This document shows positions 1 through 46,774 of a DNA stretch of 64,000 nt, piece after piece. Location: NCBI GenBank assembly GCA_033439255.1, contig CM065879.1, positions 1,778,501 through 1,842,500 on the forward strand, written 5' to 3'. Each line of letters starts with the position of its first letter. Positions within the stretch are counted from its first letter, which is position 1. Source of the stretch: Hericium rajendrae. Taxonomy: Eukaryota > Basidiomycota > Agaricomycetes > Russulales > Hericiaceae. The translations under genes and the position numbers were made by a program. The notes beneath the pieces were generated by a model that saw only the letters and a list, made by a program, of their open reading frames with translations, had not been told where the DNA came from and ran no database searches.

Positions 1-1105
1 GGTGGCTGTTTTCACCTGTAACACACGGAGAGTCAGCATACAATCGACGGCTAGATAAAAACCTCCTCACTGAGTTGATGAACTGGATGCATGCGAAATA
101 CATGTAATCTTTAGCGAACTCGTCCACAATCTCAGGATCGTGAATCGATTTCGGTCGCAAGTATTTGTGACCTGTGTGAAACACGTTCATCAATAAATGC
201 TACTATCAGGACAGTGCTGACAGAACGCACCTCGCAGCTGAGCCGAACCAAACAAAAACGGGAGAAAATGATAATCATCCAGACCCCACACGCCATGCGA
301 TCCCGCTGGCTCTAACCAGTACGAGGACTGCAGCGTTCGCATGACATTGATATATCTAGAGCCAACCATGATCAGAACAGGAACCACCATGAATGAGTGC
401 AACGAGTATCACCTCCAGAACACCCGAAGGACTAGCGCAACATGATCCGCCGGCTGTACAACCCCTAGTCTCTCGAGGCAGATTCTATATATTGATAATC
501 AGTTGTGAGAAGTGCCATACAACATAAAGATGTGAACGCACAACCAGCATAGGAAGTTCAGCTCCATGCCGCTACCATAGTCGATCCGCGTGCGGTTACC
601 GAACGCTTCAGCGAAGTAGACCGACAGCTCCGCGGCGGCTTCGGCAGGGAGGTTTGGTATGACCTCATGTAGCTTGGGGGCTGCCTATACAAGCACATAC
701 CACTGTTACGCCTGCTCTCATCAAAGATGGGACAAACCGCACCTTTTGCAATTTATCGTAGAACACTCTAAACGCAGGATTGCCAAACCGCGACGCCGCG
801 TTGTCTATCGGCGGAGTGGCCTTTGCGATCTCCTCCACCTCGTCCAATACATGCACGAGCGAGCCAATCGCCTTCACATACCGACATCATCAGCATCACA
901 GACTGGAAAACGTGCTCCAGAGTGAGAGAGCGCGCACAGGTGATTCGGGGCACGGGTCGGTCAGCTTCACGCCGATGACCGCACCGTTCAAGGTCTCGAT
1001 ATAGGAGATAATGTCATTGTGCGTCTTGGACGCCTGAAATGCGGCGAGCTGCTCTTTTGTGAGGATGGCTTTGTGGGGTGCATGGTAGGATGTTTCTGAA
1101 GTCAT
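1..1105 (-). CDS. PTPA: PTPA/Rrd-type activator of protein phosphatase 2A, 3' end outside window
   Basis: The protein belongs to the phosphotyrosyl phosphatase activator family (yeast Rrd1/Rrd2), peptidyl-prolyl isomerases that activate PP2A-type phosphatases. The start is the ATG at 1105. Exons read on the minus strand at about 1105-938, 871-743, 672-542, 484-413 and 355-235, then another ending near position 71, where a GT donor and an acceptor near position 16 show that the gene continues off the left edge. Family motifs seen are FGNPAFR, the block [40 protein letters not shown] and [13 protein letters not shown]. The introns are short and phase-consistent. I see no defect. Family assignment is confident; which of the two fungal paralogues (Rrd1 or Rrd2) it is remains open. 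Confidence 0.9.
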
Positions 1106-1508
1106 GGCAGTAGTGGGTAAGGAAAGGGGCACGGCTCCGGACCGGGCGCGGCGCGACTTGTCGCAGGCGCGCAAAGCTCGGGCTTGCGTCGGGCATGGTG
1201 AAGCTACGATTTATTCTAGACTTGGTTGACGGATTCAAAACTTTGCGAACAAGTGCTCAGCACGGATTTTATTTTACATCAATGCCATTCAAACATCACG
1301 ACATAACTAAGGTAAGTAAGTAAAGGATACAGAGATTGCTTAGTATACAGATGAGGGTAGTATCGTCAATGGGTCATCGTCTCAAAGAAGCGTTAAAGGA
1401 ACGTCGAAGGCTATACTAAGTATGCGCAAATAACCTCGAAGGGAGCGTGAAAGTCGTGAGGTATCCGGGAGGTAGCACAAAGAAACAGAAAAGAAGTCAC
1501 GGCACCGC
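1106..1508. other. Intergenic gap between PTPA and STE6
   Basis: This stretch holds the 5' flank of the PTPA gene and the 3' flank of the STE6-type gene, both on the minus strand. I see no convincing coding exon; the short open frames here lack family motifs or splice signals. Confidence 0.6.
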
Positions 1509-4500
1509 TCACTCGCCCGCCCACTCGCCCCCGCTGGCCAGCTGCGCGAACACGCCCCTCCTCTCCATGAGCTGCTCGTACGTGCCCTGCTCGGCGATGA
1601 CGCCGTCATGGACGACCACTATCCGATCGCACATGCGCATGACGGGCAGCTTGTGCGTCACCATGAGCGTCGTGCGCCCGACCTTGGCGTCCAGAATCGT
1701 CTGCATCACCGCGGCCTGGTTCGCGCCGTCCAGCGCGCTCGTGCACTCGTCGAGAATGAGGATCTTCGACGGCCGCACGAGCGCGCGCGCGATCTGCAGC
1801 CGCTGCGCCTGCCCGCCCGAGATGAGCGCCGCGTTCTCGCCGACCATGGTGGCGTAGCCCTCGGGCAGGGACATGATGAAGTCGTGGACGTTCGCGGCCA
1901 TGGCGGCGCGCTCGATGTCGCTCTGCGGCAGGTCATGGGTGCCGTAGGCGATGTTGTCCGAGATGGTCGCGTCGAAGAGGTTCGGGTTCTGGCTGACGAC
2001 TGCTACGTGGTCGCGCAGGTGCCGCACGTCCGTCGCGCCAAGATCCCAGGGTCCGATGGTGATAGAGCCGTCGTCGGGTTCGTAGAGGCGCTGCAGCAGA
2101 GCAGCCACGGTGGACTTCCCTGATCCGGACGATCCGACGATCGCAACGCTCTCGCCATCACGAAGCTGCAAGTCGATGCCTTTGAGGACTGGAACGTCAG
2201 GGCGCTCTGGGTAGGCGAAGTGGACGTCGTTGAAGGCAATGGTGCCCACGACCGGTGGACGTAAGGTACCCTGCGACTCGTCCGTGACATCCGAGAGCTG
2301 CATGAGCTTGTTGAAATCCTTAGTGGCCTGTACGGACTTCGCAATACGGTTCGCTGTGACCAGAGATTAGAATCAACTCAAAAACAAAATGAACGGAGAC
2401 TTACTGAATGCCATGAGCTGAGAGCCTATGCTGACCGTAAAGACGACCAGATTCAGGGCCTGGACCATCCGCAGATAGGTGTAGGTTCCGTTAGCGACGA
2501 GAACGGCGCCAACATAGAAGAGGAGGGCCTCCGCGAGATAGATGAGCGAGCTCGCCACGCCGTGGGTGCAGCCCTCAACAAAGGCGCCGCGCACCCCCGA
2601 ATCGAGAGCGCACTCCACTGACTCGTCGAAGCGCTCCAAGAAGACGCCCTCGAAGCCCATCGAGCGAATCCCACGAATGTTCGAGATGGTCTGTTAATGC
2701 CGTCCATGAGAATGACGAAAACCAAGACAGATGAGAGGAAGACGTACATCATAGTAACCCTTCGCGACCTGCTCACGGGCACGCTTGTTCCGCAGTTCGC
2801 ACTTAGCCACCAGGTTCGTCTGAACAGCCATCGTAACCGCAAACACCGGCGCAATCGCCAACCCAAGCAGCGTGAGCTGCCACCCAGTAACCAGCGCCCA
2901 AATAAGCCCGACGCTGAGCATCGTCGCCACGACGACCGCCTGGCTGAGCACAGTTGCAATCAGCGAGCGCGCGTCGTCGCCGTCCTTGATCAGCACCTGC
3001 ATGAGCCGCGCCGCGTTGTTCTCCGTCCTGTCGAACCACCGCTTGTCCTGCGCGAGCACGAGCCCGTAGCACACCTTGCGGACCTTGGTGACCCACGCCA
3101 TCGCGGTCGTCTCCATGGTGAAGTACTTGAGGCCCATGAAGACGCCGTCCATCGCGGCGACGGCGAGGACGATGCCGCCGAACGCATTGATGACGGACAC
3201 GTTCTTCGCGCCGGTGGAGACCTCGAAGAGGAGCCGCGACAGGAGGAAGGAGAAGACGGGCGTCATGGCGCCGCTGCCGATGGAGAACAGGATGCCGAGG
3301 AACACGAAGGGCTTGTGCGGGACGGAGGGGTAGATGTCGCGGATGAGGCGGATGAAAGATATTTGGTTTTCAGCTTCATCTGCAGCGTCGGATTCCATTT
3401 GCATCTGCGCGACCTTGACCTCCTTGAGTGGCTGGAGATTGACCGTGTCCCAACGAGCACGCGTCCTCTTTGGGGTGATATCGTCGCCGTAGAACCGCCG
3501 CCGCGAAGCCATGCGCACTGCGCTCCAGGTTCTTCTTCTCCTCGTCGAAATCACCGTCATCGAAGACAGTAGAGCCAGAGTAGGTGTTGGTCATGCTAAA
3601 TATAGGCGAAGTCGGTGTGAACTGGAGGCTGAGACGACGGCTGAGCGTGGTGCGAGCGGCTGGGGGGGATGGCAGCGCGGGTAGGTCGATCGCGACCGTC
3701 GAAGGCCGTCTCGTGTTCTTGATTTTTGCCTCCTCGACAGCTGTCCCGAACTCCTCGGGTGCGACGAATCGACTCTTGCGGTCTGGAACACGGGGCACAG
3801 GCGTCGAGGAGCGTGACTTGGTCAGGTCGTAGACGACGTCCATCATCCAGTTGCCAATGGTAAGCGGCCGGAGCGCCGGAACCGCGACGCTCTGGCGGCT
3901 GAGAGCGCGGGCGTGCATCTCCTCGTCGTCAGAGTACTCGTCCTCCTCCAGGATCATCTCCACCTTGCGCTCGCGCTCGCGCAGCGCCTCGTCAGACCAT
4001 GGATCCTCCGTCTCCAAGAGGCCACCCTGAGCGCCCTGCACCTCCATCATCTGGCGGAACTCGCCGCCGGGCGTCTTCTCGATGTCGACACGGAAGCCTT
4101 GCTCAGCAATGCGACCGTCCTTGAGGAGGTACACGAAGTCGGTCTGGCTGATTTGGGAAAGGTCGTGTGTTATTACAATCGTTGTTTTGTTTCGTCGCCA
4201 GTGCTTGATGGCCTCGAAGACGAGGACACGCGAAGTCGCGTCCAGCGCGGACGTGGCCTCATCTGTTCACGAAGATCAACGTCAGCAAATGTGTTGTATG
4301 AGGGATAAGGAGGGGCCTACCGAGAATAAGCACTTGAGGATCGCGCAACCGCGCACGCGCGATTGCCAGTCGTTGTTTCTGTCCCCCGGACAGATTTGCA
4401 CCTCCGTTGCCCAGCTGCGTATCGTACCCATCCGGGAGGTCCCGCACGAAGTCATGCAGCAACGCAACTCTGCACGCCTCGACGACCTCCTCTCGGGTGG

Positions 4501-31161: not shown

Positions 31162-31902
31162 GGTGGGAACGGCGATGCCAAGGACGACAATGGAACCGGC
31201 GAGGTCGAAGAAGGTGGCGAGAACGACGATGCTGAGGATTTCGGTGAAACCGGTTTCATTGGACACATTGCAATCATTGGCTACATGGTCAATAGCAGAC
31301 TCGCAGAGCTGATGCGAGTCTGGCGTCAACAAAGGACATCTGCTGCCTCCCAGGTCCTGTGTTTTTGTGGAGGGGTTTTCAGTTCCTGGTATGAAGAGGT
31401 ATGTTTTCGCAGAGATATCCAGTTTCAAGTTCGATTCTGATGCAACTGTTTCCCGTCAGAGAGAAAAATCGGAAAGCGTCTTACAGTGTCTGCTATCCTC
31501 GGCTTATGGTGATTATTGGGAGGACTCTGAGGAAGAAACCAACGACCCTGATGACGATCAGTCCGACATCAGGAAAAAGTGTTTTTTGATTGATAGCCGG
31601 GATGATGTTACGTTATGCTACAGTATCAGTGCCTGTGCTACAAATAGATAACTGATTGGTACAATAGCCGGTGTTCAGGTACTGATTGCAACATGTATCT
31701 ACAGTAGCTTCTGTAGTTGACAGGATTTGTGTATGCCAGAGGCAAGGCTGCATGCACACACATACCAAGTTATCAAGTCCAACAGTTCATACTTTCTGTA
31801 TTGTGGCTCACAATATAGCCAGGTCTTCTTGTATTATATTAGTTTAATTTACAAGGGTACAATTAAATCACATCTCCCTCTGCACTGCAGCACCCAATGC
31901 CC

Positions 31903-31938
31903 GTGGGAAGTCTTTTGCTGCAGCAAAACAGTTCCCAC
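31903..31938. repeat. 36-base palindrome, left (element A copy 1)
   Basis: The motif runs from GTGGGA to TCCCAC around a TTTTGCTGCAGCAAAA core. Related palindromes lie at 33321-33356 and 35136-35171, and their counterparts occur in copy 2 at 45358-45393, 43939-43974 and 42172-42207. Confidence 0.85.
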
Positions 31939-31979
31939 ATGCCATCTCTATGGGAGTTTGGTGGCAATGCACATAGATG

Positions 31980-33115
31980 AGGGCACACGCAGATTGATGG
32001 GTGAGGGGGGCATGTGGGGATTGGCAGGGATGCGCGTGAGTCAGGGGGTGCACAGGCTGGCAGCAAATGCACGCACGAGGCAAAATGGGGGGGTGCATGA
32101 GTTGGCGGCAATGCCCACGGGTCGGCACATGCGTGCGCGGATCAATGGGGGTGTGCGAAAGTGTGCGCACGGGCCAGGGGTGCGAACCAAGGTGCGTACA
32201 TGAGTTGGCAGCGGTGCGCACGGGTCGATGTGTGCACATGCAGATTGGCGAGGCCGGCGGGGGCATGCGGGAGTCGACGAGGGCATGCACAGGTCGGCGG
32301 GGCATATGCAACTCGATGGGGGAGTGTGTGAGGCGTCGGCGATGTGTACAGGTCGGCCAGGGCGTGCGCGGGTCGGCCGGGGCGTGCGCGAGTCGGCCGG
32401 GGCATGCGCGAGTCGACGGCGACATGCGCGGGTCGATGAGTGCATGGACGGCGAGGACATGCAGGTGTCGACAGGCACACGCGTGGGTCAACAGCGACGC
32501 GAGGGGTCGGCAGAAGCACGCGCGGATCGGTGGAGGCACGCTGGTCCGCACATGCATGCATGAGTCGGCGCATACGTGTGCAGGTTGTCGGCACTGTGTC
32601 AGATCGGCGGGGATGTGCACGGGTCGATGGGTGTGCGCTGGTCGGCGCATGTGTGTGCAAGTCAGCGGGGGTGTGCGCTGGTCGATGGCGATATGGGCAG
32701 ATCGGCAAGGGCACGCGTGGATCGGCGGGGGGGGGAGGGGGGGGCGTGTTGGTTGGCAGGGTGCGCATGGATCGGCGGGGCGCGCGCGGATCGGCACATG
32801 CATGCACGAGTTGGCGGGAGTGTGCGCCAGTCGATGGTGACAGGCATGGGCCGATGGGGGCAGGGTCGGGTCAGCGGGGACATGTGCAGGTCGACGGGCA
32901 TGCGCGTGGATCGATGGCGACGCGAGGGGATCAGCGGGAGAGCGCGCAGTTTGCAGGGGCATGCGCGGTTTGGCGCATGCAGGTGAGCGGCAATGCGCAG
33001 GGGTTGGCGATGATCGCAGGGATCGATAGAGGGACGCAGGTCGGCGGCAGGTCGAGCATGTCAGCGGTGATGCTGACGGTCCGGTTGGGGCTTGCAGGGG
33101 TCAGTGGGGCCATGC
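31980..33115. repeat. G-rich tandem array of element A copy 1
   Basis: Degenerate units of about 15-20 bases (consensus roughly GGTCGGCGGGGGCATGCGC) are repeated for 1.1 kb. Open frames in all registers reflect the lack of TA-rich stops, not genes. A poly-G run at 32726-32750 is probably unstable. Confidence 0.85.
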
Positions 33116-33320
33116 GCAGGGTACAAACGAGAGTATTGCCCATATTTGAACGGGCGATAATCTCTGAATCAGTGCGAAATAAGGTCAATAAGACAATTTT
33201 ACTCACCGTGCAGCCCTCTGCGACTCTTCCCTGTAGTGAAACCAGCTGAATACCTGCAAAAGATGTGTGAATTATCCATCGACAGAGGGAAACATACCTT
33301 GCAGATTTGAAAAAACAGCC

Positions 33321-33356
33321 GTGGGACGTGTTTGGCTGTAGCCAAACGTTTCCCAC
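33321..33356. repeat. 36-base palindrome, central (element A copy 1)
   Basis: It is a diverged relative of the outer palindromes with a TTTGGCTGTAGCCAAA core. It lies in the unique central part of the element. Confidence 0.8.
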
Positions 33357-33648
33357 GCGCCCCCCGCATTTTTTTCTTCAAGTCGAAACGCGCGCGGGCA
33401 TGGCCCGCCGTGCACCGTGCTGTTTTATCGCCCATATATGGTCACTAAAATGAATCGGGCCGTGCGGCTCCGTGCGCTCGACTTGTGCGCGATTTGACTT
33501 TGCCTGCCACGTCGTCTTCCTTCCACCCACCCCTTCCTCATGGTGGAATTTTAATTGTAAGTGTCTCTTAATCTTTTTTGAGTCTTGTTGGGCTGGGAAT
33601 AAAGGTGAGTAGCTACAGTTTTTCCTGTAGCTTTATTGTACTAATCAA

Positions 33649-33682
33649 GAGAGTATCGCTCGCGGTGTCGAGCGATACTCTC
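33649..33682. repeat. Perfect hairpin in the centre of element A copy 1
   Basis: A 14-base stem (GAGAGTATCGCTCG and its complement) encloses a 6-base loop. A weaker hairpin with the same GAGAGTAT start lies at 33144-33180, and both are followed or preceded by inverted GTACAAACGAGAG-type sequence and GGGGCCATGCG, so the centre is itself an inverted repeat of about 500 bases. Confidence 0.85.
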
Positions 33683-33702
33683 GTTTTGTACACTCCGCAT
33701 GG

Positions 33703-35130
33703 CCCCACAATGCCTGCGCCCCCGCGTCGCCTCCTGCGTGCCCTCGCCGACTCCTCCACGCCCTCGCCGACTCTCGCACACCCTCACCGACTCCCGCACA
33801 CCCTCACCGACTCCCGCATGCACACGTCACCTCCCTCCTGCATGCCCACGTCGACTCCCGCACGCCCACGCCGACTCCTGTGTGCCCCCCACTGACCCGT
33901 CGCACCACCACCAACTCGCTTGCACCCCCACCGATCCCGCACGCCCGTGCCGCCTCTCGCGCGCACCCCGCCGACTCGCTCGCACCCCGCCAACTCGCTC
34001 GCACACCCACTGACCTTGACACATCCCCGTCAACCTGCACGCGTCACTGCCGGCCCACGTCCTGCATGCCCCCACCGACTCCCGCGCACCCGCAGGGGTG
34101 AGTGAGTTGGTGAGAGCGTGTGGAAGACAGTACAAGCATTTTGAGAGGTGGCGGGGTTGCGAGCAAGTCAGTGAGGGTGCAAGCAAGTTGGTGGGGGCAC
34201 GAATGAGTCGGCACGGGCGTGAGGGAGTCAACGGAGGCATGAGCGAGTCAGCGGGGGCACGCGGGAGTTGGAGGAGGGGTGCGCGGGAGGCAGTGGGAGT
34301 CAAGGTGGGCACGCGAGAGAAGATGAGGGCACGCGGGAGTTGGCGAGGGCGCGAGGGGGGGTCGGGGTGGGCGCGAGGTGGCAGGAGACTTCCGCGCACC
34401 CCTACCGCCTCACGTGCACCCTCGCCAACTCCCATCCACCCATGTCACCTCTCGCATGCTGTACCGCCTCCCGCATGCCTGCGCCGACTCCCACCTGCCC
34501 GTGCTGCATCCCGCGCGCTCCCGCTGCCTTCCCCTGTCCGCGCCGACTCCCGCACACTAGCGCCGATGCCCACACGCCCGTGTCGATGCCCTCACACCCG
34601 CACCGACTCCCGCACGCCCGCGCCAACTCCTGCACGCCCGCACCGATGCCCGCACGCACGCGCCAACTCCCGCACGCCCGCACCGATGCCTGCGCGCCCG
34701 CGCCGACTCCCGCGCACCCACGCCGATGCCCGCATGCTCGCGCAGACTCTCGCATGCCCGCGCCAACTCTCGTGTGCACGCTGATGCCCGCACGCCCACG
34801 TTGACTCCCGCACGCCCGCGCCAACTCCCGCACGCCCGTGCCGGCTCCCGCACGCCTGCGCCGACTCCTGCGTGCTCCCACTGCCTCCCGCCCACCCGCG
34901 CCAACACCCGCACACCGGTGCCGCCTCCTACATGCACGCAGCAACTCGCACGCACACGCGCCGATGCCCCGCGCCCCTGCCAACTCGCATGCACCTGCGC
35001 CGACTACAGCATGCCCGTGCCGGTGCCCACACACCTGTGCTGACTCGCGCATGCCCCCGCTGACTCCAATGCGCTCCTGCCACCTCCAGCATACCCCCGC
35101 CGATCTCTGCACGCCCCTGCTGCCTCCTGT
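33703..35130. repeat. C-rich tandem array of element A copy 1 with an inverted sub-block
   Basis: Units of about 15-21 bases (roughly CCGACTCCCGCACGCCCGCG) are repeated for 1.4 kb. At 34098-34385 the strand bias flips to G-rich, so a 290-base block is inverted within the array. The array mirrors the G-rich one on the other side of the centre. Confidence 0.85.
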
Positions 35131-35135
35131 AATGC

Positions 35136-35171
35136 GTGAGAACTGTTTTGCTGCAGCAAAATAGTTCCCAC
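35136..35171. repeat. 36-base palindrome, right (element A copy 1)
   Basis: It has the same TTTTGCTGCAGCAAAA core as the left palindrome. Together with the adjacent CCCAATG/CATTGGG motifs it forms a subterminal inverted repeat about 300-440 bases from each end of the element. Confidence 0.85.
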
Positions 35172-35199
35172 GAGACATTGGGTGCTGTGGGTATAGAAG

Positions 35200-35575
35200 G
35201 GTGTGGAGAGGAGATATTATACATTAGTACTATCAGTGTAAAAGATGTAACTAGTCAGAATACAAATTTTGCATGATTTATTGTACGAGATGTGATTAGA
35301 GACTATAATGAATTATAACAAACTATATTATACTGAATCTCACATACTGCAATATAACACTATAGTAGCTAGCACAAGCTACAGTAACTAGCATAAGCTA
35401 TCGTAGATATATCATCTACAGACTGCTACAGATCACTACAGATGGCTACAGATGGCTACCTGTAGTTGTAATAGAGACCCACCTATTAACAGATGCTACA
35501 GAAAATATATAATCTATTATAGCTACTGTAGACTATATTTTCTACTGTAGGCTAAAATAGTATGGACACTTTTTC
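35200..35575. repeat. AT-rich end with clustered CTACAG/CTGTAG motifs (element A copy 1)
   Basis: More than ten hexamers of the CTACAG/CTGTAG type, in both orientations, fall in about 250 bases (35360-35560). Clusters of short subterminal motifs are typical transposase-binding arrays in DNA transposons. A sparser set lies at the other end (31617-31720). Confidence 0.7.
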
Positions 35576-36372
35576 CAGATGGACATTGAGGGTGCAGCAC
35601 CAACTGCAGTTACCACAAAATCGACCAAGGCTCCAGCACGCAAGAAGCCACTCAGAGGAGATATAGACCAAAAGGTTTGTCTGATGCATCGACTGATTAT
35701 AATGATGCTTATGATACTATCCAGCTCCAGCAGGTGTGGACTCGGATGGACGGCTTTGATGACCGGCTGGGCACGATTGAGAGCCTGCTTCGCTCCCTTA
35801 TTGCTGCCAGTGCCAATACAAGTTTGGCCAATCCCGTGCCGCCCAAAAAGCAGCTTCCCTCGCAGGTCTCGCAGTCTCAAGTTCCCAGTCCTCCGGTTAC
35901 CCCTGCCTCTAAAGGGAAGGCTGTAAGATCCTCTTCAGGTCAGACTTCCCAGCGACGCGAACATATAGACGAAGAAGAAGACAATCAAGACGATGAACAA
36001 GGGGATCACGGTCAGCATTCTACGTATCTCGATGACTCACATGACGACCGCAATTATCACATCGCTGGTGATGCCTCCTCTGGTCACAACTGCCACGAAA
36101 TCAGCGACGAAGATGAGCATGGGAATGAGCATGATGACGAGGATGATAGCAGCAGCGAAGCTGATAATTGTGTTGATGGCCGCTCTTACAACCCCCACCA
36201 GGTCACTGGCGATCGAAGAATTTCAGATCGTCAATATCAGAGCTACCAAGAAGATGATGACCATGCTGTGCAGCAGCACAGCAGTGAAAACAATGACGAT
36301 GACGATGATGGTGAAGAGGAAAGTTCGGAGGATGCAGATTCTGGCTCGGATGGAGGGCTCTGGCCATCTTAA

Positions 36373-37171
36373 AGATATCAACGCCTATCCAGCGCCTTAC
36401 TTGGAAGTTTCATGTACTCGATATAATGTACAAAGGTCACTGCTAAGCTGGTTTCAATCTACCTGTATACATTTTTGTGCGGTCAGTCTGACTCGAGTGC
36501 CGCCGGGGGCGGCAGAGCCCTTGCTCGGAGTTCGAGTTCGAGTACTGTTTGAGTTCGAGTTCAGCTGGAAGGCTGGCATGTCGGTGCGCAGCATGATGAC
36601 TTCAACATGAGATCACGATTGATGTCATTGCCAACAGGAAGGGAAAGTTTTGTGAGGGTGGAAAGTCTGTGGAGAGCCTGCTAGGGAAATCCAAGAAAAG
36701 CCGGAGACGGAGCACGATCACGTGCACAGAAAGAGTGCCGAATCCGGGACAATCTGTGTTGACGCGTGACGTCATAGCACGGCCCTACGGGCATCACCTG
36801 GTCCCATGTTTGGAAAAGTGCTCAGTGCGTGCGCGCTCTCGCACGAATGCGGGAAGCATGTCATAAATGCGAGAAGCATGTCATAGTCCACATATGCAGG
36901 CAGTGTATACAGTTACAGGTAGATCTCGTCCATCAGCGAGCCAGTAAGGTGATGGCCATCAGCCAATTGTGCGACCAAAAGAACGATAAAGAGCACATAG
37001 TCTGTGTGTGCGATAGGATAGTACCGGCACAAGAGTCACTGTAGAAACAGATGGAGGGGCGAGAAAGTCAATGTAAAAGTGATCAAAAGTGAAGTCCATG
37101 TCTTGTGGCGTCGATTATGTCGAATAAGTCACGATCAGGGAAGTCATGCTGGTGGACGAGAGGAGTGAGAT
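36373..37171. other. Gene-free stretch
   Basis: This stretch holds the 3' flank of the EF-hand-like gene and the 3' flank of a minus-strand gene. A small GTTCGAGTTC repeat lies at 36525-36565. I see no coding exon with support. Confidence 0.5.
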
Positions 37172-39540
37172 TTAAGGAAGCGGAGCGGCATGTATAGAGA
37201 TAGGAGGCGCACCGGTGCCGTACTGGGCTTGACTATTATATCGATGAGGGAGGATACGTGAGAAGCCGTCCATGATAGCGAGGAATACATGGCCTCGGCC
37301 TGGAAAGTACCGGTGGCTGACAATGACAACGACTTCGACAAGGGCACCTTGGAGATCTGATGGATAGTGAGGAATGGTGCGGCGGCTCATTGCAGTGTCA
37401 GACACACTGTGTCCAAAGAAGAATGGCGAGTCCTGGGTAGAACGGCAGGTGAATTTTCCGAGAAACAGAAGGCATTGTCAGAGTGCATACATCAGGGCTA
37501 GGGAGGGACACGAGTCAGAGTCACCCGCAGGTCCACACAGGTAAACTCGCAAAATTTACCTGCGGGTTCCTGATCCGCGGATCCGGATCACCCGGTGGCT
37601 GAGACCTGTCCAGATCCAGGTCAAGGTCTTGCCAAAATTCATGGACCCGCGAGTGATCCGCAGGTAACTCATACTTAGAGCACTTAGTAGTAATCTGCAC
37701 TCGAAATTTTATGCGAAGAGATACATGAACTATAATCTACAAACGCAAGGAATCTACTGCTACTAGACAGCTAAGTATATCTACTGACTAGCATACCCTC
37801 CGCCAGTGGGTGGGGCTCTGCGAGGCACGGGGTCGTGTGCGAGATGTAGGTACGGGGTGACATGGCAGGGCCATGTGCGACATGCATGGTGCAAATGCGT
37901 GCAGGTGGGGCTATACACCAGCTCGAGGCTGCGCGTGGGCATACACATGTCGGCGGGGTCGTGTTTAGGTGTGTGCGCGTGCATTGGTGGGCACGCAATG
38001 CGGGAGGCCGTGCACGAATACTGGCTGGCACAGCTGTGCACACGCAAGCAGCGTCACCGGCACCGGCGTCGGTGGGATCGTAGCGCGCATGGGGGGGAAT
38101 CGGCTTGGACACTGGTGTGGCCCGCATGAGACGTGGACTGCGGCATCCGTGACGCGGCAGGTGTTGGCATTGACGGAAGCATGTCGACGGGCAGGGAAAG
38201 CGAGCAGGATGGAAGTCGGACTGCGTGGCGACGTCGACAAGCAGATGCGGGGAATTGAGACGAAAAGGATGGTCATCTGCTTGCATACTTATCGATACGG
38301 TGTGAGGTACTCACCTCGTCGTGTGCCGCCTCGGATCTCTCACAGTACGCCTCATCGCGTGACTGTCCTTGCTACATCCTTTGAGCCATCCCGAATACTA
38401 GCAGACGCCTGCTCTGGCGTCTGCATACTCACTTCTCGCCTCCAGAGCCGTCGGCCGTCCTCGATGATGTCCGCGAAGGTGTCCGGATGGGGCGTGGCCG
38501 GATGGAGTATGGCCATACGCGCGGTGTACATACGCACCAGTGTGCGGGAATGTGCGTGAGTGCGGATATGTGCATGTGCGCACGTTGATGAGTCCGTACA
38601 CGGTGCGTGCTGGTACGCGTGCCGGTACACATGTGTCGATGGGGATGGAGAATGTATGGGAGGTGTCAAATGCGAGGCGACAGCGTCGTTGTGCAGCTCA
38701 CAGCGCGCCGCGTCATCGTCTTTCGACACTTAAGTGAATAGCAAATGACAAGAAAAAGAATGAATAGAAACACAACGCAAATACGAACCAAAAGAACTTA
38801 CTAGCCGGTGCTGCTAAGCACGAGTAGGCCATGCAGGATGGTCTTATCGCATATGATGGTGTTGAGTGCTTAAAACTGGGCAGTCTGACGCGGCGTCTGC
38901 TCCGACAGCACAGCTGACATGGACGATTCGAGTACGAGGGACAGCAATAGTGGGATGGTGTCACTGAGAAAAGCGACCTGCGAGTGACCCGTGGCACCGC
39001 AGGTACCTGACCCGCGGCTCCGGATCACCCGGTGGCTGAAACCCGCGCGGATCCAGGTCAGACCTCGCGCTGGGTCAAATACCCGCGGGTTCGGATCCGG
39101 ATCACCCACGAGTGCACTCGTGTCGATCCCTAATCAGGGCAGATGACTTGCAGTCTGTTCTCGTGAAGCAGACTAGAGTATATGTCGCCGCCGGGTGCGG
39201 TCGCAGCCATGATAGCAATTAAATTGCGAAGCATAGCTTCCCAATGAAGTCGGGTGGTGGGAAACCTGAGACGGGGGCGAGCGAGGGTGCCGGTGTACGT
39301 ATGATGCGGTAGGTCAGGTACGAGGGCCTCCCATGACCAGTCGCCGACGGCAGTGAAGGTGGGATAGGGAGGTCTGGTTGCAAACGGACGAGGGCGAGAG
39401 GACACGAGAATAGCAGTGTCGTTCTCGTCACTGTCTGCCCAATGGACGTGATCAGTGAAATTGGGAGAGGCAAGGTCGTTGGGTGTGAAAAGGAAAAAGA
39501 AACCAATCGGGACTCGTTGGGAGCGAGGAGCTTCAGGCAT
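37172..39540 (-). pseudogene. Unknown two-exon host gene split by hAT-like copy 1
   Basis: The start ATG is at 39540; exon 1 ends with codons for CPD at 39133. The hAT-like element follows. After it, at 37498-37491, comes the second copy of the target duplication, then a GTATGC donor, a short intron to about 37438, and exon 2 with stop at 37172. The element therefore sits on the last eight bases of exon 1, exactly at an exon-intron border. The product would be about 225 residues (NFTDHVHWADSDENDTAILV in exon 1; VEVVVIVSHRYFPGRGH in exon 2). I do not recognise the family. Confidence 0.65.
37499..39132. mobile_element. hAT-like non-autonomous DNA transposon, copy 1 (1,634 bp)
   Basis: The ends are TAGGGAGGGACACGAGT and, complemented, TAGGGATCGACACGAGT. 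The perfect 8-bp duplication ATCAGGGC (37491-37498, 39133-39140) is the hAT hallmark. Subterminal GATCC/ACCCGCGGGT motifs cluster within about 150 bases of both ends. No transposase frame is present. Copy 2 at 59321-60954 has the same length and orientation. Confidence 0.92.
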
Positions 39541-40553
39541 GGTAGCGGCGCGTGAGGGGGAAGAGAGAAAGCAGGATTAGTCGTATAATCTCAGCGAGAG
39601 CGATCAATTTAACCAAGGGAATTTGTGATATATTGTTCAACGTCGGAGCACGACTGTCTTTGCAGCGGAACGTGTCGGAGCATGATGATGGCGGGTGGCG
39701 CGCGGAGAGAATTGATCGACTTTGACGTGAGTAGATCGGGATGAATGACGGCCTCGCAGACCGTATGGTATGGAGGGTGCGATTGCACAGTATGTCAATC
39801 GGAATATCTGTGAGAGAGTGTAGTTATCAGATGAGGTTTAGCTATTGTTGCATACAGTTCGGGTCCGGTTCGGAGTTTTCGATGAATGTGCTCGCAGCGC
39901 ACCATAACAATTCACAGCACGCATGTACCTGCAAATTGGAGAGGAAGCATTCATGCGGGGTGTTGTTGTCTTGGCAGCTGTGCATGTTGAAGTGCACAAG
40001 CGTTAAAGCTTAAAGTCGTCTGTGCACGTCGATCTCGCGGACGTTGCCGGAAGATTGCTCCCGCCTTTGCATATCCATGGAGTTGCGCGGTTTAGTGCGA
40101 GGACGTGGAAAGTCTGTGTGTTCATAGGTAGCATCGATCGTACGCAGGTCATGTTGCCACAGCACGTTCTTACTGTTTTCGCGGACGCTTTGGACACTCT
40201 GCATTGACAATAAATCAAAAATTGCGTACACATGGGAGGCAGTAATAGGCGGTCGTCAGAAAAGAGTCTGCAGTTATTCAAATCTGGAGAAGTCCGAAGG
40301 GTTCGCAGAGCAGGAAAGGTGGGATAGAGTTCGTATGCAAAATAACTGTACGGTGCTGAGGGTGAGAGGGGCTGCACAAATAGTCAAGTCCAGACAAGTC
40401 CTCAGAAATTGCAGAGCGGAAAAGGTCGGATAGTATTTGTATGTATGCGTGTGCAGAGAAGCGTGCAGGAATCGTACGGTGAGGATGGTGACAAAGGCTG
40501 GATGGATGTCAGCATGAGGAAGATAAGTACAGAGAGGAACATACATGGCAGAT
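39541..40553. other. Gene-free stretch with an imperfect tandem duplication
   Basis: No supported exon was seen. At about 40278-40500 a unit of roughly 110 bases is imperfectly repeated (each with GCAGAGC, GGAAAAGG/GGAAAGG and TGTACGGT/CGTACGGT). Confidence 0.5.
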
Positions 40554-41546
40554 TCAGTACGGCACATGCTCCTTGATCACCATGATACGTGCATCTTCCT
40601 TCTGGTCGCAATGTGGGCATGTAGGACCGCCAAATACCCAAGCCGCGCCAAAAGCGGCCGGTTGAATAGAAGGATGACAAGTATCATAGGTTAGATCGTC
40701 GAATGTGATGGTCAGGGAACCAGCATCTGAAAAGGACCGAAGGCGGTGAGGGCAGTAAAATCGACCTGCGGTGTTTCCACCGTTATGGAGGAAAGGAGAA
40801 TTCTGCATCTCTGTTATCTCGAACCCGCGGTCCTCATATTTGCTGACGCATGCATCGATGCGGGGAATTTCACTACCACCTGGGTGCGTAACACAACCAA
40901 CGCCGTTTAACGTCCATAACGGGTAGGCGATGGCCATCGCATTCGCAGAGACACCGCCGATGACGTGCGTGCCCCAGAAGTTAGCGACAGAGGTCTCGGG
41001 GGTCGGACGGGCGCTGCATATGATGTCGATGGTGGCTTGCGAGTTCCGATGGACGAGCTTGACGACATTGGCGATACCACTGCCGTACTCATCCTCTGGG
41101 TGGGGATGTGTAGAGAGGATGGAATATCCTTCGTCCTGTCGGAGATAGTCCACCATGAAGGCAGCCGTGTCATATGGGCAATACATGTCCATGTCCTTGG
41201 CATCGAAGATGTCGATTCTGGCACAGAACCTAAGAAAAAAGGAAAGAGGAAGGGACCCGGAGAGCATCGCACGGCACATGTGCATGTTCATCTGGAGCTG
41301 GGTGGGGTTGTTGACGAATCGGCCGAGATAAAGCGACCATGTATATCTAAGAACATAGTTGACATTGGCGCGGCTGCGACGGTCCACTTGCCGCAGGCGG
41401 TAGAGGGATAGAAACGGGAGGTAATGGCATATTTCGAGGAAGACATCAATGTTGCCGAGTGCTCGTTTAGCTACGGTACTGTCGACAGAAGGTAGGGCGT
41501 AGGTGGGCAGACGCTGCCTTGTGAGAGATGCGAGGGAATGCGCCAT
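40554..41546 (-). CDS. F-box-like protein of an Agaricomycete multi-copy family
   Basis: A 330-codon intronless frame. The N-terminal region has an F-box-like pattern (NIDVFLEICHYLPFLSLYRL, RQVDRRSRANV), the SCF ubiquitin-ligase adaptor motif. The rest (FCARIDIFDAKDMDMYCPYD, HRNSQATIDII, YPLWTLNGVGCVTHPGG) matches my recollection of large F-box protein families in Agaricomycetes. The C-terminus has a CPHC pair. Substrates are unknown. It lies between two interrupted genes yet its own frame is intact. The F-box call is made by eye from a short motif. Confidence 0.65.
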   Translation of the reverse strand: MAHSLASLTRQRLPTYALPSVDSTVAKRALGNIDVFLEICHYLPFLSLYRLRQVDRRSRANVNYVLRYTWSLYLGRFVNNPTQLQMNMHMCRAMLSGSLPLSFFLRFCARIDIFDAKDMDMYCPYDTAAFMVDYLRQDEGYSILSTHPHPEDEYGSGIANVVKLVHRNSQATIDIICSARPTPETSVANFWGTHVIGGVSANAMAIAYPLWTLNGVGCVTHPGGSEIPRIDACVSKYEDRGFEITEMQNSPFLHNGGNTAGRFYCPHRLRSFSDAGSLTITFDDLTYDTCHPSIQPAAFGAAWVFGGPTCPHCDQKEDARIMVIKEHVPY

Positions 41547-41633
41547 AGGGATATTACAGGGTTGGGCATGGGCAAGAAATGATGACGGGGCAGAGGCGAC
41601 TTATATATGGCAGAATGGCTGCATATAGATTGG

Positions 41634-44600
41634 TCAGGCAAAATTGCTCCGTAGATATCGTTCAAATTCACGTCGGCCAAAAACATCCTGAGGTAGGTTT
41701 CCACTGCAGTTGTACCACCAGATGGTTCGAGCCAAGGCTTCTTCATCTAGTTGCTCGGACGCATCTGGAAAAAGTGTCCATACTATTTTAGCCTACAGTA
41801 GAAAATATAGTCTACAGTAGCTATAATAGATTATATATTTTCTGTAGCATCTGTTAATAGGTGGGTCTCTATTACAACTACAGGTAGCCATCTGTAGCCA
41901 TCTGTAGTGATCTGTAGCAGTCTGTAGATGATATATCTACGATAGCTTATGCTAGTTACTGTAGCTTGTGCTAGCTACTATAGTGTTATATTGCAGTATG
42001 TGAGATTCAGTATAATATAGTTTGTTATAATTCATTATAGTCTCTAATCACATCTCGTACAATAAATCATGCAAAATTTGTATTCTGACTAGTTACATCT
42101 TTTACACTGATAGTACTAATGTATAATATCTCCTCTCCACACCCTTCTATACCCACAGCACCCAATGTCTCGTGGGAACTATTTTGCTGCAGCAAAACAG
42201 TTCTCACGCATTACAGGAGGCAGCAGGGGCGTGCAGAGATCGGCGGGGGTATGCTGGAGGTGGCAGGAGCGCATTGGAGTCAGCGGGGGCATGCGCGAGT
42301 CAGCACAGGTGTGTGGGCACCGGCACGGGCATGCTGTAGTCGGCGCAGGTGCATGCGAGTTGGCAGGGGCGCGGGGCATCGGCGCGTGTGCGTGCGAGTT
42401 GCTGCGTGCATGTAGGAGGCGGCACCGGTGTGCGGGTGTTGGCGCGGGTGGGCGGGAGGCAGTGGGAGCACGCAGGAGTCGGCGCAGGCGTGCGGGAGCC
42501 GGCACGGGCGTGCGGGAGTTGGCGCGGGCGTGCGGGAGTCAACGTGGGCGTGCGGGCATCAGCGTGCACACGGGAGTCGGCGCGGGCATGCGAGAGTCTG
42601 CGCGAGCATGCGGGCATCGGCGTGGGTGCGCGGGAGTCGGCGCGGGCGCGCAGGCATCGGTGCGGGCGTGCGGGAGTTGGCGCGGGCGTGCGGGAGTCGG
42701 TGCAGGTGTGAGGGCATCGACACGGGCGTGTGGGCATCGGCGCTAGTGTGCGGGAGTCGGCGCGGACAGGGGAAGGCAGCGGGAGCGCGCGGGATGCAGC
42801 ACGGGCAGGTGGGAGTCGGCGCAGGCATGCGGGAGGCGGTACGGCATGCGAGAGGTGACATGGGTGGATGGGAGTTGGCGAGGGTGCACGTGAGGCGGTA
42901 GGGGTGCGCGGAAGTCTCCTGCCACCTCGCGCCCACCCCGACCCCCTCGCGCCCTCGCCAACTCCCGCGTGCCCTCATCTTCTCTCGCGTGCCCACCTTG
43001 ACTCCCACTGCCTCCCGCGCACCCCTCCTCCAACTCCCGCGTGCCCCCGCTGACTCGCTCATGCCCCCGTTGACTCCCTCACGCCCATGCCGACTCACTC
43101 GCGCCCCAACCGACTTGCTCGCACCCTCGCCGACTTGCCAACCCCGCCACCTCTCAAAACGCCCGTACTGTCTCCCACACGCTCTCACCAACTCACTCAC
43201 CCCTGCGGGTGCGCGGGAGTCGGTGGGGGCATGCAGGACGTGGGCCGGCAGTGACGCGTGCAGGTTGACGGGGATGTGTCAAGGTCAGTGGGTGTGCGAG
43301 CGAGTTGGCGGGGTGCGAGCGAGTCGGCGGGGTGCGCGCGAGAGGCGGCACGGGCGTGCGGGATCGGTGGGGGTGCAAGCGAGTTGGTGGTGGTGCGACG
43401 GGTCAGTGGGGGGCACACAGGAGTCGGCGTGGGCGTGCGGGAGTCGACGTGGGCATGCAGGAGGGAGGTGACGTGTGCATGCGGGAGTCGGTGAGGGTGT
43501 GCGGGAGTCGGTGAGGGTGTGCGAGAGTCGGCGAGGGCGTGGAGGAGTCGGCGAGGGCACGCAGGAGGCGACGCGGGGGCGCAGGCATTGTGGGGCCATG
43601 CGGAGTGTACAAAACGAGAGTATCGCTCGACACCGCGAGCGATACTCTCTTGATTAGTACAATAAAGCTACAGGAAAAACTGTAGCTACTCACCTTTATT
43701 CCCAGCCCAACAAGACTCAAAAAAGATTAAGAGACACTTACAATTAAAATTCCACCATGAGGAAGGGGTGGGTGGAAGGAAGACGACGTGGCAGGCAAAG
43801 TCAAATCGCGCACAAGTCGAGCGCACGGAGCCGCACGGCCCGATTCATTTTAGTGACCATATATGGGCGATAAAACAGCACGGTGCACGGCGGGCCATGC
43901 CCGCGCGCGTTTCGACTTGAAAAAAAATGCGGGGGCGCGTGGGAAACGTTTGGCTACAGCCAAACACGTCCCACGGCTGTTTTTTCAAATCTGCAAGGTA
44001 TGTTTCCCTCTGTCGATGGATAATTCACACATCTTTTGCAGGTATTCAGCTGGTTTCACTACAGGGAAGAGTCGCAGAGGGCTGCACGGTGAGTAAAATT
44101 GTCTTATTGACCTTATTTCGCACTGATTCAGAGATTATCGCCCGTTCAAATATGGGCAATACTCTCGTTTGTACCCTGCGCATGGCCCCACTGACCCCTG
44201 CAAGCCCCAACCGGACCGTCAGCATCACCGCTGACATGCTCGACCTGCCGCCGACCTGCGTCCCTCTATCGATCCCTGCGATCATCGCCAACCCCTGCGC
44301 ATTGCCGCTCACCTGCATGTGCCAAACCGCGCATGCCCCTGCAAACTGCGCGCTCTCCCGCTGATCCCCTCGCGTCGCCATCGATCCACGCGCATGCCCG
44401 TCGACCTGCACATGTCCCCGCTGACCCGACCCTGCCCCCATCGGCCCATGCCTGTCACCATCGACTGGCGCACACTCCCGCCAACTCGTGCATGCATGTG
44501 CCGATCCGCGCGTGCCCCGCCGATCCGTGCGCACCCTGCCAACCAACACGCCCCCCCCCCTCCCCCCCCGCCGATCCGCGCGCGCCCTCGCCGATCCGCC

Positions 44601-46315
44601 CGTATCGCCATCGACCAGCGCACACCCCCGCTGACTTGCACACACATGCGCCGACCAGCGCACACCCATCGACCCGTGCACATCCCCGCCGATCTGACAC
44701 AGTGCCGACAACCTGCACACGTATGCGCCGACTCATGCATGCATGTGCGGACCAGCGTGCCTCCACCGATCCGCGCGTGCTTCTGCCGACCCCTCGCGTC
44801 GCTGTTGACCCACGCGTGTGCCTGTCGACACCTGCATGTCCTCGCCGTCCATGCACTCATCGACCCGCGCATGTCGCCGTCGACTCGCGCATGCCCCGGC
44901 CGACTCGCGCACGCCCCGGCCGACCCGCGCACGCCCTGGCCGACCTGTACACGTCGCCGACGCCTCACACACTCCCCCATCGAGTTGCATATGCCCCGCC
45001 GACCTGTGCATGCCCTCGTCGACTCCCGCATGCCCCCGCCGGCCTCGCCAATCTGCATGTGCACACATCGACCCGTGCGCACCGCTGCCAACTCATGTAC
45101 GCACCTTGGTTCGCACCCCTGGCCCGTGCGCACACTTTCGCACACCCCCATTGATCCGCGCACGCATGTGCCGACCCGTGGGCATTGCCGCCAACTCATG
45201 CACCCCCCCATTTTGCCTCGTGCGTGCATTTGCTGCCAGCCTGTGCACCCCCTGACTCACGCGCATCCCTGCCAATCCCCACATGCCCCCCTCACCCATC
45301 AATCTGCGTGTGCCCTCATCTATGTGCATTGCCACCAAACTCCCATAGAGATGGCATGTGGGAACTGTTTTGCTGCAGCAAAAGACTTCCCACGGGCATT
45401 GGGTGCTGCAGTGCAGAGGGAGATGTGATTTAATTGTACCCTTGTAAATTAAACTAATATAATACAAGAAGACCTGGCTATATTGTGAGCCACAATACAG
45501 AAAGTATGAACTGTTGGACTTGATAACTTGGTATGTGTGTGCATGCAGCCTTGCCTCTGGCATACACAAATCCTGTCAACTACAGAAGCTACTGTAGATA
45601 CATGTTGCAATCAGTACCTGAACACCGGCTATTGTACCAATCAGTTATCTATTTGTAGCACAGGCACTGATACTGTAGCATAACGTAACATCATCCCGGC
45701 TATCAATCAAAAAACACTTTTTCCTGATGCGGCGACCAGCTGTCATTCAGGGGACCATTCTTGACAACAACAGCCAATCCACGGATGATCGGTAGAGATG
45801 GTTTCCGCACGGATGTGGCAATGGTATTGACTGTACAGGCGGTGCACATGTCAGGGTGTATGGCATAAATGGAATAGTACCAATCGATTATTGGGAGACG
45901 GTCATACATCTCCGTTGCGAGAATGCACGGGCCGGGACCTAAAATGTCTTGTAACGATACAGGTGATACAGTTCCATCATGGTCCATCTCGACGCGACAT
46001 GGATCGAGATAAGTCTTCACCATGTCTAGGCTCGATAACGGGTCTTCCATGAGGAAATCAGGATGAATCGCGATCGCATTCCAGTCTGTTTTCAATACCG
46101 GCATTTGGTCCGGGAAACGAGTGCGAAAGAAACGCTGTGCAGGGTTTTGTGAGTGCGGTGCAGTAAGAAGAATGAGATGAGTCCACCTCCTCCGATAGCA
46201 TCCAGTCGGGGTTGTTGTCTAACACATCCTGCAGAGCATGAGCACAATCTACCTCCGACGAGGGCTGTTCAGACAGTTGGCATGAGGTGATATCGACAGG
46301 CCTTGGGGGATACAT
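41634..46315 (-). pseudogene. Unknown host gene split by element A copy 2
   Basis: The start is the ATG at 46315. Exon 1 (MYPPRPVDITSCQL...) ends near 46187; after an intron of about 51 bases, exon 2 (RFFRTRFPDQMPVLKTDWNA) runs to 45730, ending with codons for SWSP. Element A copy 2 follows. The frame then resumes at 41759 with SEQLDEEALARTIWWYNCSG and stops at 41634. Removing the element and one CG leaves the frame intact. The product would be about 230 residues. No family was recognised. Confidence 0.65.
41762..45729 (-). mobile_element. Element A copy 2 (3.97 kb), opposite orientation to copy 1
   Basis: This copy is nearly identical to 31567-35581 in reverse complement, with the same ends and internal order, and about 47 bases shorter because of small array indels. 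CG flanks both sides (41760-41761, 45730-45731), different from the GA around copy 1, so the two copies inserted independently. Its arrays are a G-rich block at 42213-43640 (with an inverted sub-block) and a C-rich block at 44180-45330 including a poly-C run near 44551-44570. Confidence 0.82.
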
Positions 46316-46774
46316 GGTGATGGATAGAATGGGAGCGGTGAGTGAGTAGGTGTGGCGCACATTGGGCGTGGGTGTGCGCGATCGTTCGATCGGACAGTGA
46401 TCGGAGCCGTACGGTGGTGCCGTGGATGCGGGTCCGAAAAGGGTGTGTTCATGTTGTCGGGCTTCAGTTCATTCCAAGTTTGTCCAGAGAGCGTCTAGAG
46501 CTGCTCGCTCGCAATTCCTTCCGGTGCGCTGTGGCGTGCGATGCACTCACATTTGTGGAACAATGCCTGTATATGGTCTTCGGTAGTGAATGCGAGACAG
46601 CTTCCGGTAGTGGGTGTGAGACGGTTTGGAACGATTTGTGGGGCAGCAGCAGCGACTGATCGATTTGTGTAGGATGAACTACTCAGCGTACGATCGCGAT
46701 ACGCAGCATTTGCCATGGCTGGTTTCGGCCATGCAATATAATACGAGATGTGGAGCACAGCGCCATCTAATGCG

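Follow-up and report, generated by a model that had tools for sequence, protein, structure and literature searches.

CACTA/EnSpm transposons, of which maize En/Spm is an example, have short terminal inverted repeats (TIRs) beginning with CACTA or CACTG, target site duplications (TSDs) of 2-3 bp, a repeated subterminal motif and non-autonomous derivatives. Tc1/mariner elements duplicate TA, and Helitrons have neither TIR nor TSD. For PlavakaB, the available text of the published description gives termini CATCA..TGATG, a TSD of 2 or 3 bp and, in some families, a TET/JBP gene, and places the distribution of Plavaka, a fungal group described only recently, in the Agaricomycotina (Kojima 2025, PMC12730594). 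PlavakaB is further marked by C(2)C and H(3-4)H motifs between the second D and the last E, and its transposase is set apart from that of PlavakaA by phylogeny. In the accessible parts of two further reports, the genome of Marasmius oreades is rich in Plavaka elements and its non-autonomous families are classed by the TIR and TSD of autonomous ones (PMC8290104, PMC9674265). Galileo of Drosophila, a member of the P superfamily, is described in the consulted sections of its report with 7-8-bp duplications and inverted arms that can include tandem repeats (PMC4168063). Here we analyse Element A, present twice in a 64,000-nucleotide stretch of Hericium rajendrae contig CM065879.1 (C2:1778501-1842500, hereafter the window), together with its relatives in the genome searched (46.8 Mb, 19 contigs). 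We consider it likely that Element A is a non-autonomous PlavakaB element moved by a Plavaka transposase, with an interior that probably makes spliced, structured RNAs.

The window contains two nearly identical copies in opposite orientation, as an initial annotation of this DNA had proposed; their identity is 98%. Their limits and ends are as follows.

31567-35581, plus strand: Element A copy 1 (assigned as non-autonomous PlavakaB), 4015 bp, recognised by its ends, its TSD, 98% identity to copy 2 and ends common to the 12.4-kb copies described below
41762-45729, minus strand: Element A copy 2 (assigned as non-autonomous PlavakaB), 3968 bp
31565-31566: TSD GA, left of copy 1
35582-35583: TSD GA, right of copy 1
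41760-41761: TSD CG, low-coordinate side of copy 2
45730-45731: TSD CG, high-coordinate side of copy 2
31567-31581, plus strand: left TIR CATCAGGAAAAAGTG of copy 1
35567-35581, minus strand: right TIR CATCTGGAAAAAGTG of copy 1
35332-35581, plus strand: right subterminal CTACAG/CTGTAG cluster of copy 1, 9 motifs in 250 bp

The inverted ends, CATCAGGAAAAAGTGT..ACACTTTTTCCAGATG, match each other over about 16 bp and are flanked by GA/GA and CG/CG, as annotated at both copies. Because the TSDs differ, they indicate two separate insertions, not one duplicated stretch. Alignment of the copies gave 31 substitutions (29 transitions) and five gaps, one of 40 nt, which is the length of two units of the array described below. 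Genome-wide, the end pattern CATCWGGAAAAAGTG was matched 101 times at up to one mismatch (54 exact) compared to 5 times for the reversed control, a number far from chance expectation. A TSD survey was carried out on the 15 elements with two exact ends facing each other, a 14-kb composite on C9 and end pairs with one mismatch being set aside. The TSD was 2 bp in 13 elements (GA, CG, CA, TC, CA, AG, CA, CT, GA, AA, TG, AG and TG), 3 bp (ACG) in one and absent in one, in agreement with the annotation of a DNA transposon with exact boundaries and 2-bp duplications. The annotated subterminal cluster was also recovered, with three CTACAG/CTGTAG motifs in the first 250 bp and nine in the last 250 bp; elsewhere in the window, beyond the two elements, their density is 0.37 per kb. 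If CACTA elements are taken as a guide, the motifs of the right cluster are probable protein-binding sites.

The rejoining of the interrupted host frames had been put forward as independent confirmation of the boundaries. Once the element was removed, the frames were open over both sites (198 codons and 204 codons). At site 2, the rejoined frame had 23 matches, of which 20 run through the junction (5 of these 20 contain stop codons), the remaining three being the two interrupted pieces, 96% and 98% identical to the query, and one partial match ending before the junction; the best further match has 45% identity over residues 3-143. At site 1, the genome search returned only the two interrupted pieces and no paralog by which the junction could be checked. 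On the minus strand of the window, at 41400-46600, copy 2 splits one gene of a host family that counts about 20 paralogs.

The initial annotation had suggested looking for a longer copy with the same ends that encodes a transposase, and such copies were found. Three 12.4-kb copies (C2:25000-37414, C2:3857472-3869885 and C4:1119862-1132277; loci L039-L044) have the ends of Element A and are 99.5-99.7% identical to one another, which suggests recent activity. A Pfam-type scan of ten frames of the first copy, flanked by CA/CA, showed that two collinear frames match PF18759 (Plavaka; E 2e-43 and 3e-36). The same scan returned two collinear Peptidase_C48 pieces (Ulp1-like protease; E 0.001 and 0.006, neither reaching the curated cut-off), a Tet_JBP match (E 1e-7, below the cut-off) and one frame with a sub-threshold zinc-finger match, four frames giving no match. 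In the other two copies, one stop-free frame covers positions 106-325, which is most of the Plavaka profile. The whole genome contains at least 132 exon-level Plavaka matches, and a match also lies at a C7 locus, 1.6-2.6 kb inside a matching end. No transposase was found when one was looked for inside the 4-kb copies.

Element A agrees with the first 12.4-kb copy at 31 of its 32 leftmost and 55 of its 60 rightmost positions. In BLAST alignments of the two, identity is 74.6% for the left end (122 columns) and 82.7% for the right end (220 columns). The left end of Element A reads CATCAGG and the right end, read inward, CATCTGG, one base off the five published for PlavakaB. The PlavakaB termini, its 2- or 3-bp TSD and PF18759 in an element with the same ends were all found. 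Given these shared ends and the published PlavakaB termini and TSDs, Element A is, as judged from termini and TSDs, a non-autonomous PlavakaB element, related to CACTA/EnSpm, and is presumably moved in trans by the 12.4-kb type. The claims that the element was apparently undescribed and fitted no known superfamily did not survive this comparison: the transposase of the same-ended 12.4-kb copies is Plavaka (PF18759), and the ends and 2-3-bp TSDs correspond to those in the available text on PlavakaB (PMC12730594). Its term 'palindrome-built' suits the interior of the non-autonomous copies but not the mobile system. The words Ulp1, protease and subterminal are absent from the main text of PMC12730594.

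Some relatives of Element A are 7-14 kb long. Their extra length was considered as a possible Plavaka transposase gene of their own, a candidate that was rejected since the additional sequence looks like nested insertions, with hAT-like frames in C2_987048 and a second PlavakaB-type element in C18_125283. From a reading of its frames, the insertion nested in the relative at C2:986001-996000 (L047) appears hAT-like with a BED-like start. In addition, a 490-bp repeat, 98% identical, occurs twice in one and once in the other of C1_214368 (L045/L046) and C7_2704069 (L056), and these repeats look like long terminal repeats of a nested retroelement. A methylation-style decay was likewise considered. 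CpG-type transitions account for 21 of the 31 substitutions between copies 1 and 2, and the observed/expected CpG ratio is 1.0-1.1 in the arrays and core and 0.2 in the element ends. As CpG is not depleted in the arrays or core, there is no clear link to TET.

The interior was studied from an alignment of 14 cores, including two near-identical pairs. Introns were found first by eye, read against the splice-site consensus, and then by regular expressions composed once the alignment was known. The features of the interior are listed below, P designating the 36-nt palindrome.

33254-33297, minus strand: first intron predicted for the leftward transcript (intron 1), 44 nt, GTATGT..TTCAC..CAG
33164-33206, minus strand: second intron predicted for the leftward transcript (intron 2), 43 nt, GTGAGT..CTGAT..CAG
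33605-33649, plus strand: single intron predicted for the rightward transcript, 45 nt, GTGAGT..TACTAAT..AAG
33432-33441: CCATATATGG, TATA-like or CArG-like, unchanged in 12 of the 14 aligned cores
33129-33164, minus strand: left-arm hairpin, covarying, beginning where minus-strand intron 2 has its predicted 3' splice site
33649-33682, plus strand: right-arm hairpin GAGAGTATCGCTCG..CGAGCGATACTCTC, whose shorter pattern has 278 genome sites
43616-43649, minus strand: right-arm hairpin of the core of copy 2
31903-31938: outer left palindrome P of copy 1
33321-33356: central palindrome P of copy 1
35136-35171: outer right palindrome P of copy 1
45358-45393: outer palindrome of copy 2 (element-left)
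43939-43974: central palindrome of copy 2
42172-42207: outer palindrome of copy 2 (element-right)
31942-33106, plus strand: left array, 20-nt period, G-rich on the plus strand (C-rich read outward from the core), limits approximate
33712-35126, plus strand: right array (approximate limits), 20-nt period, C-rich on the plus strand but containing one G-rich stretch at about 34100-34390

The predicted plus-strand intron was found in 14 of 14 cores (in C12_186 the expression gave a longer match containing the 44-nt one), as was minus-strand intron 1, stretched to 83 nt by an insert in one core. Minus-strand intron 2 was counted in 12 of 14 cores, C15 being non-homologous there and C19 being missed by the expression although its sequence is visible in the alignment. 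Intron lengths are 42-45 nt (9, 8 and 9 copies compared), and the mean pairwise identity of motif versus other intron columns is 0.98/0.52, 0.90/0.62 and 1.00/0.67 for the three introns (9, 8 and 9 rows). Exon 2 of the leftward transcript would be 45, 47, 48 or 49 nt long in 13 copies, so that no reading frame is held. Copies diverged to about 65-85% elsewhere still keep the splice signals and the hairpins. The core thus looks like a divergent promoter with three short introns, and Element A and its relatives probably make spliced non-coding RNAs.

In each arm, the predicted last exon opens with a hairpin at the predicted acceptor, followed by the C-rich array. The initial annotation had seen one central hairpin; a hairpin is indeed present, in the form of two mirrored ones (33129-33164 and 33649-33682). 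Covariation was tested on ten left-arm sequences with 500 shuffles, related copies being treated as independent, which inflates the figures. In the left-arm hairpin, 94.3% of the cells are paired and 5 of 14 pairs show a two-sided change, a value reached by 8 of 500 shuffles. The covariation score was 0.270 compared to a shuffled mean of 0.187 and was reached by none of the 500 shuffles, and sliding the partner by 1-3 columns lowered pairing to 29-57%. A search of Rfam 15 gave no match above the gathering score, six weak matches to microRNA models (E <= 1) all lying far below it.

The three annotated palindromes were recovered and are mirrored between the copies. Palindrome P has 227 strand matches in the genome, equivalent to about 114 sites, and 0 in the control. 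In the 12.4-kb element, it precedes the transposase frame by about 90 bp and another frame by about 135 bp, a position that suggests a promoter-linked role. Palindrome P itself contains the CTACAG motif, and the core has an inverted pair of it. The annotated mirrored arrays were likewise borne out, with a 20-nt period, the left one G-rich and the right one C-rich; in the copies profiled, the C-rich strand runs outward on both arms.

To what extent the intron and hairpin are found together elsewhere can be read from genome-wide patterns. The hairpin AGTATYGCTC-N4..12-GAGCRATACT occurs at 278 sites and a longer form at 173, the reversed control giving 0 for each; for most of the 278, just the location is known. 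In the copies examined, this hairpin stands directly after the predicted 3' splice site, and it is dispersed well beyond Element A. Hairpin halves with GTGAGT 28-44 nt upstream number 100 (reversed control 0), and in 88 of these modules GAGAG begins 42-44 nt after the beginning of GTGAGT, the allowed range being 34-50. The compact form of the module is GTGAGT-N(24,36)-CTRAY-N(1,6)-GAGAGTATYGCTC. A branch site CTRAY lies 1-6 nt before the hairpin start in 90 of the 100 modules, compared to 0 in the reversed control and about 2% by rough estimate. The expectation of CTRAY came from copies examined beforehand, which make up 12 of the 100 modules, all with the branch site; outside them it is present in 78 of 88. 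Just 31 modules have any of the 57 P sites that were typed, out of about 114, at a distance of 4.5 kb or less, so that many modules probably lie outside Element A.

One such setting is a second family. Its element, 3097 bp long, is nested in C18_125283 (L054; element positions 670-3766), has ends CATCAGAAAAATC..GATTTTTCTGATG rich in CATAG/CTATG with an AG/AG duplication, and carries two intron-hairpin modules in tandem and a C-rich stretch whose strongest period, though weak, is 20 nt. Palindrome P was not found in it with three mismatches allowed. The end pattern of this second family matches the genome 384 times at up to one mismatch (control 6). When the modules were set against the 97 exact family-2 ends listed, 21 of the 100 proved to be 1.23-1.6 kb upstream of such an end, compared to 2 with strands flipped. 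As read from these sequences, the intron-hairpin module is common to at least two PlavakaB-type non-autonomous families.

Taken together, these results are compatible with the following mechanism. The Plavaka transposase of the 12.4-kb copies would recognise the CATCWGGAAAAAGTG ends and the CTACAG-rich subterminal stretches, excise Element A in trans and insert it with a 2-bp, rarely 3-bp, duplication. Two divergent transcripts would start from a two-way promoter in the core. Their leaders would be spliced, two short introns being removed leftward and one rightward, and each last exon would begin with its hairpin exactly at the 3' splice site. Both transcripts would then go outward along the C-rich strand of the 20-nt array to the 36-nt palindrome. 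The RNAs would be non-coding and may help the element in regulation or in escape from silencing. As the RNA of both arms would be C-rich, pairing between the two arm transcripts is unlikely.

Several observations weigh against this proposal. The element C1_214368 has no TSD. The autonomous 12.4-kb copy compared has neither core nor hairpin, so that the module is not simply the promoter of the 12.4-kb element; the core was indeed rejected as a promoter common to both, BLAST finding only the ends and the palindrome. Core copy L003 was counted for intron 2 although its donor reads ACGAGT and is lost, some acceptors are AAG or GAG instead of CAG/TAG, and the homologous left hairpin is absent from cores C15 and C9_147. 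The covariation tests took kin copies as independent, and further pair types in the hairpin did not exceed shuffles (66 of 500). The distance test carries no weight for the ends of Element A, which gave 11 modules and also 11 with strands flipped, an equality that follows from its two-armed symmetry. Finally, copies 1 and 2 have long left-arm frames, detailed below, that this proposal does not explain.

These long frames raise the question of whether repetitive proteins are translated from the arrays, starting at an ATG close to the hairpin. The longest and first-ATG frames were compared to 60 shuffles per arm in 12 arms, to which C15 and C19 contributed one each and C2_987048 and C18_125283 none. 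The first ATG comes 12-73 nt after the last exon begins, the left-arm frames of copies 1 and 2 reach 350 and 330 codons (0 of 60 shuffles) and a frame in C9_1470233 reaches 471 codons (1 of 60). However, first-ATG frames range from 9 to 471 codons over the 12 arms, the longest frame is reached by 4 or more of 60 shuffles in 9 of the 12 arms, and both the 20-nt unit and an exon 2 of 45-49 nt would shift frames. With no consistent frame excess over shuffles, coding arrays were rejected as very improbable. Still less credit can be given to a DNA transposon of an undescribed superfamily, an idea prompted by the lack of a detected transposase in the 4-kb copies and by a combination of features not seen in the common superfamilies. 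The 12.4-kb copies with the same ends have a Plavaka transposase, and the termini and duplications are as given in the available text on PlavakaB (PMC12730594).

Two other explanations concern the core itself. It could be a functionless relic, namely the promoter and 5' leader exons of a divergent gene pair of a lost autonomous ancestor, in which arrays have replaced the genes. The divergent layout does resemble gene pairs, P stands upstream of two frames in the 12.4-kb element at the distances given above, and 6 of the 100 modules are within 12 kb of a typed transposase place, so that a live autonomous family may still carry the module. Yet splice signals and hairpins persist in copies otherwise at about 65-85% identity and in a second family with other ends, and the at least 29 core places listed come no closer than 14.5 kb to any of 81 typed transposase places; we regard a relic as unlikely, while taking it seriously. 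Palindromes and hairpins could instead act as DNA, as cruciforms or as protein sites for transposition or replication, the splice-like strings being coincidental. The ends of CACTA-type transposons are protein-bound, and CTACAG recurs inside P and as the inverted core pair. By contrast, the hairpin loop varies in length while the stems covary, and donor and branch site occur in splicing order with narrow spacing in 90 of 100 genomic modules, which makes a purely DNA-level role improbable.

On the usual view, a non-autonomous DNA transposon depends on nothing but its ends, and its interior is expected to decay. In the elements studied here, the splice signals, hairpins and arrays of the interior have outlasted the remaining sequence and recur in a second family. 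We tentatively raise the possibility that non-autonomous PlavakaB elements are mobile non-coding RNA genes, with a module selected across families that have different ends; the spliced RNA might set chromatin, recruit transposase or shield the element from silencing, beside a partner that carries a TET/JBP-type oxygenase. If the transcripts are confirmed, these would be transposons living by RNA and not by protein. The 12.4-kb partner, with its transposase, protease-like and TET-like genes, and its many dependents offer a concrete system for studying such an RNA function.

Compared with known systems, Element A differs from Tc1/mariner in that its duplications are GA, CG, CA, TC, AG, CT, AA and TG, and from Helitrons in having a TIR and a TSD. 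It resembles CACTA/EnSpm in its short TIR, 2-3-bp TSD and repeated subterminal motif, but its ends read CATC.. instead of the CACTA/EnSpm terminus and its transposase model is Plavaka. Inverted arms with tandem repeats recall Galileo as described in the consulted sections of PMC4168063, but the TIR of Element A is about 16 bp and its mirrored arrays are internal; nor is it a foldback element with long TIRs starting from its ends, the self-comparison showing only internal inverted segments above threshold. The available parts of the reports on Marasmius oreades mention no splice signals, hairpins or arrays in its non-autonomous elements (PMC8290104, PMC9674265). In the available text of the literature on Plavaka and related elements, a search gave no prior description of the conserved introns, hairpins and arrays of the interior. 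The closest system is PlavakaB, with which Element A shares, as far as the available text goes, CATCA..TGATG termini, 2- or 3-bp duplications, the Plavaka transposase and, through its 12.4-kb partner, the TET/JBP gene of some families; unlike it, Element A lacks a transposase gene and has CATCT at its right end, and mirrored arrays, introns and hairpins do not appear in that text (PMC12730594). The mobile system itself is therefore known as PlavakaB, and what is new here is its interior of conserved introns, hairpins and arrays.

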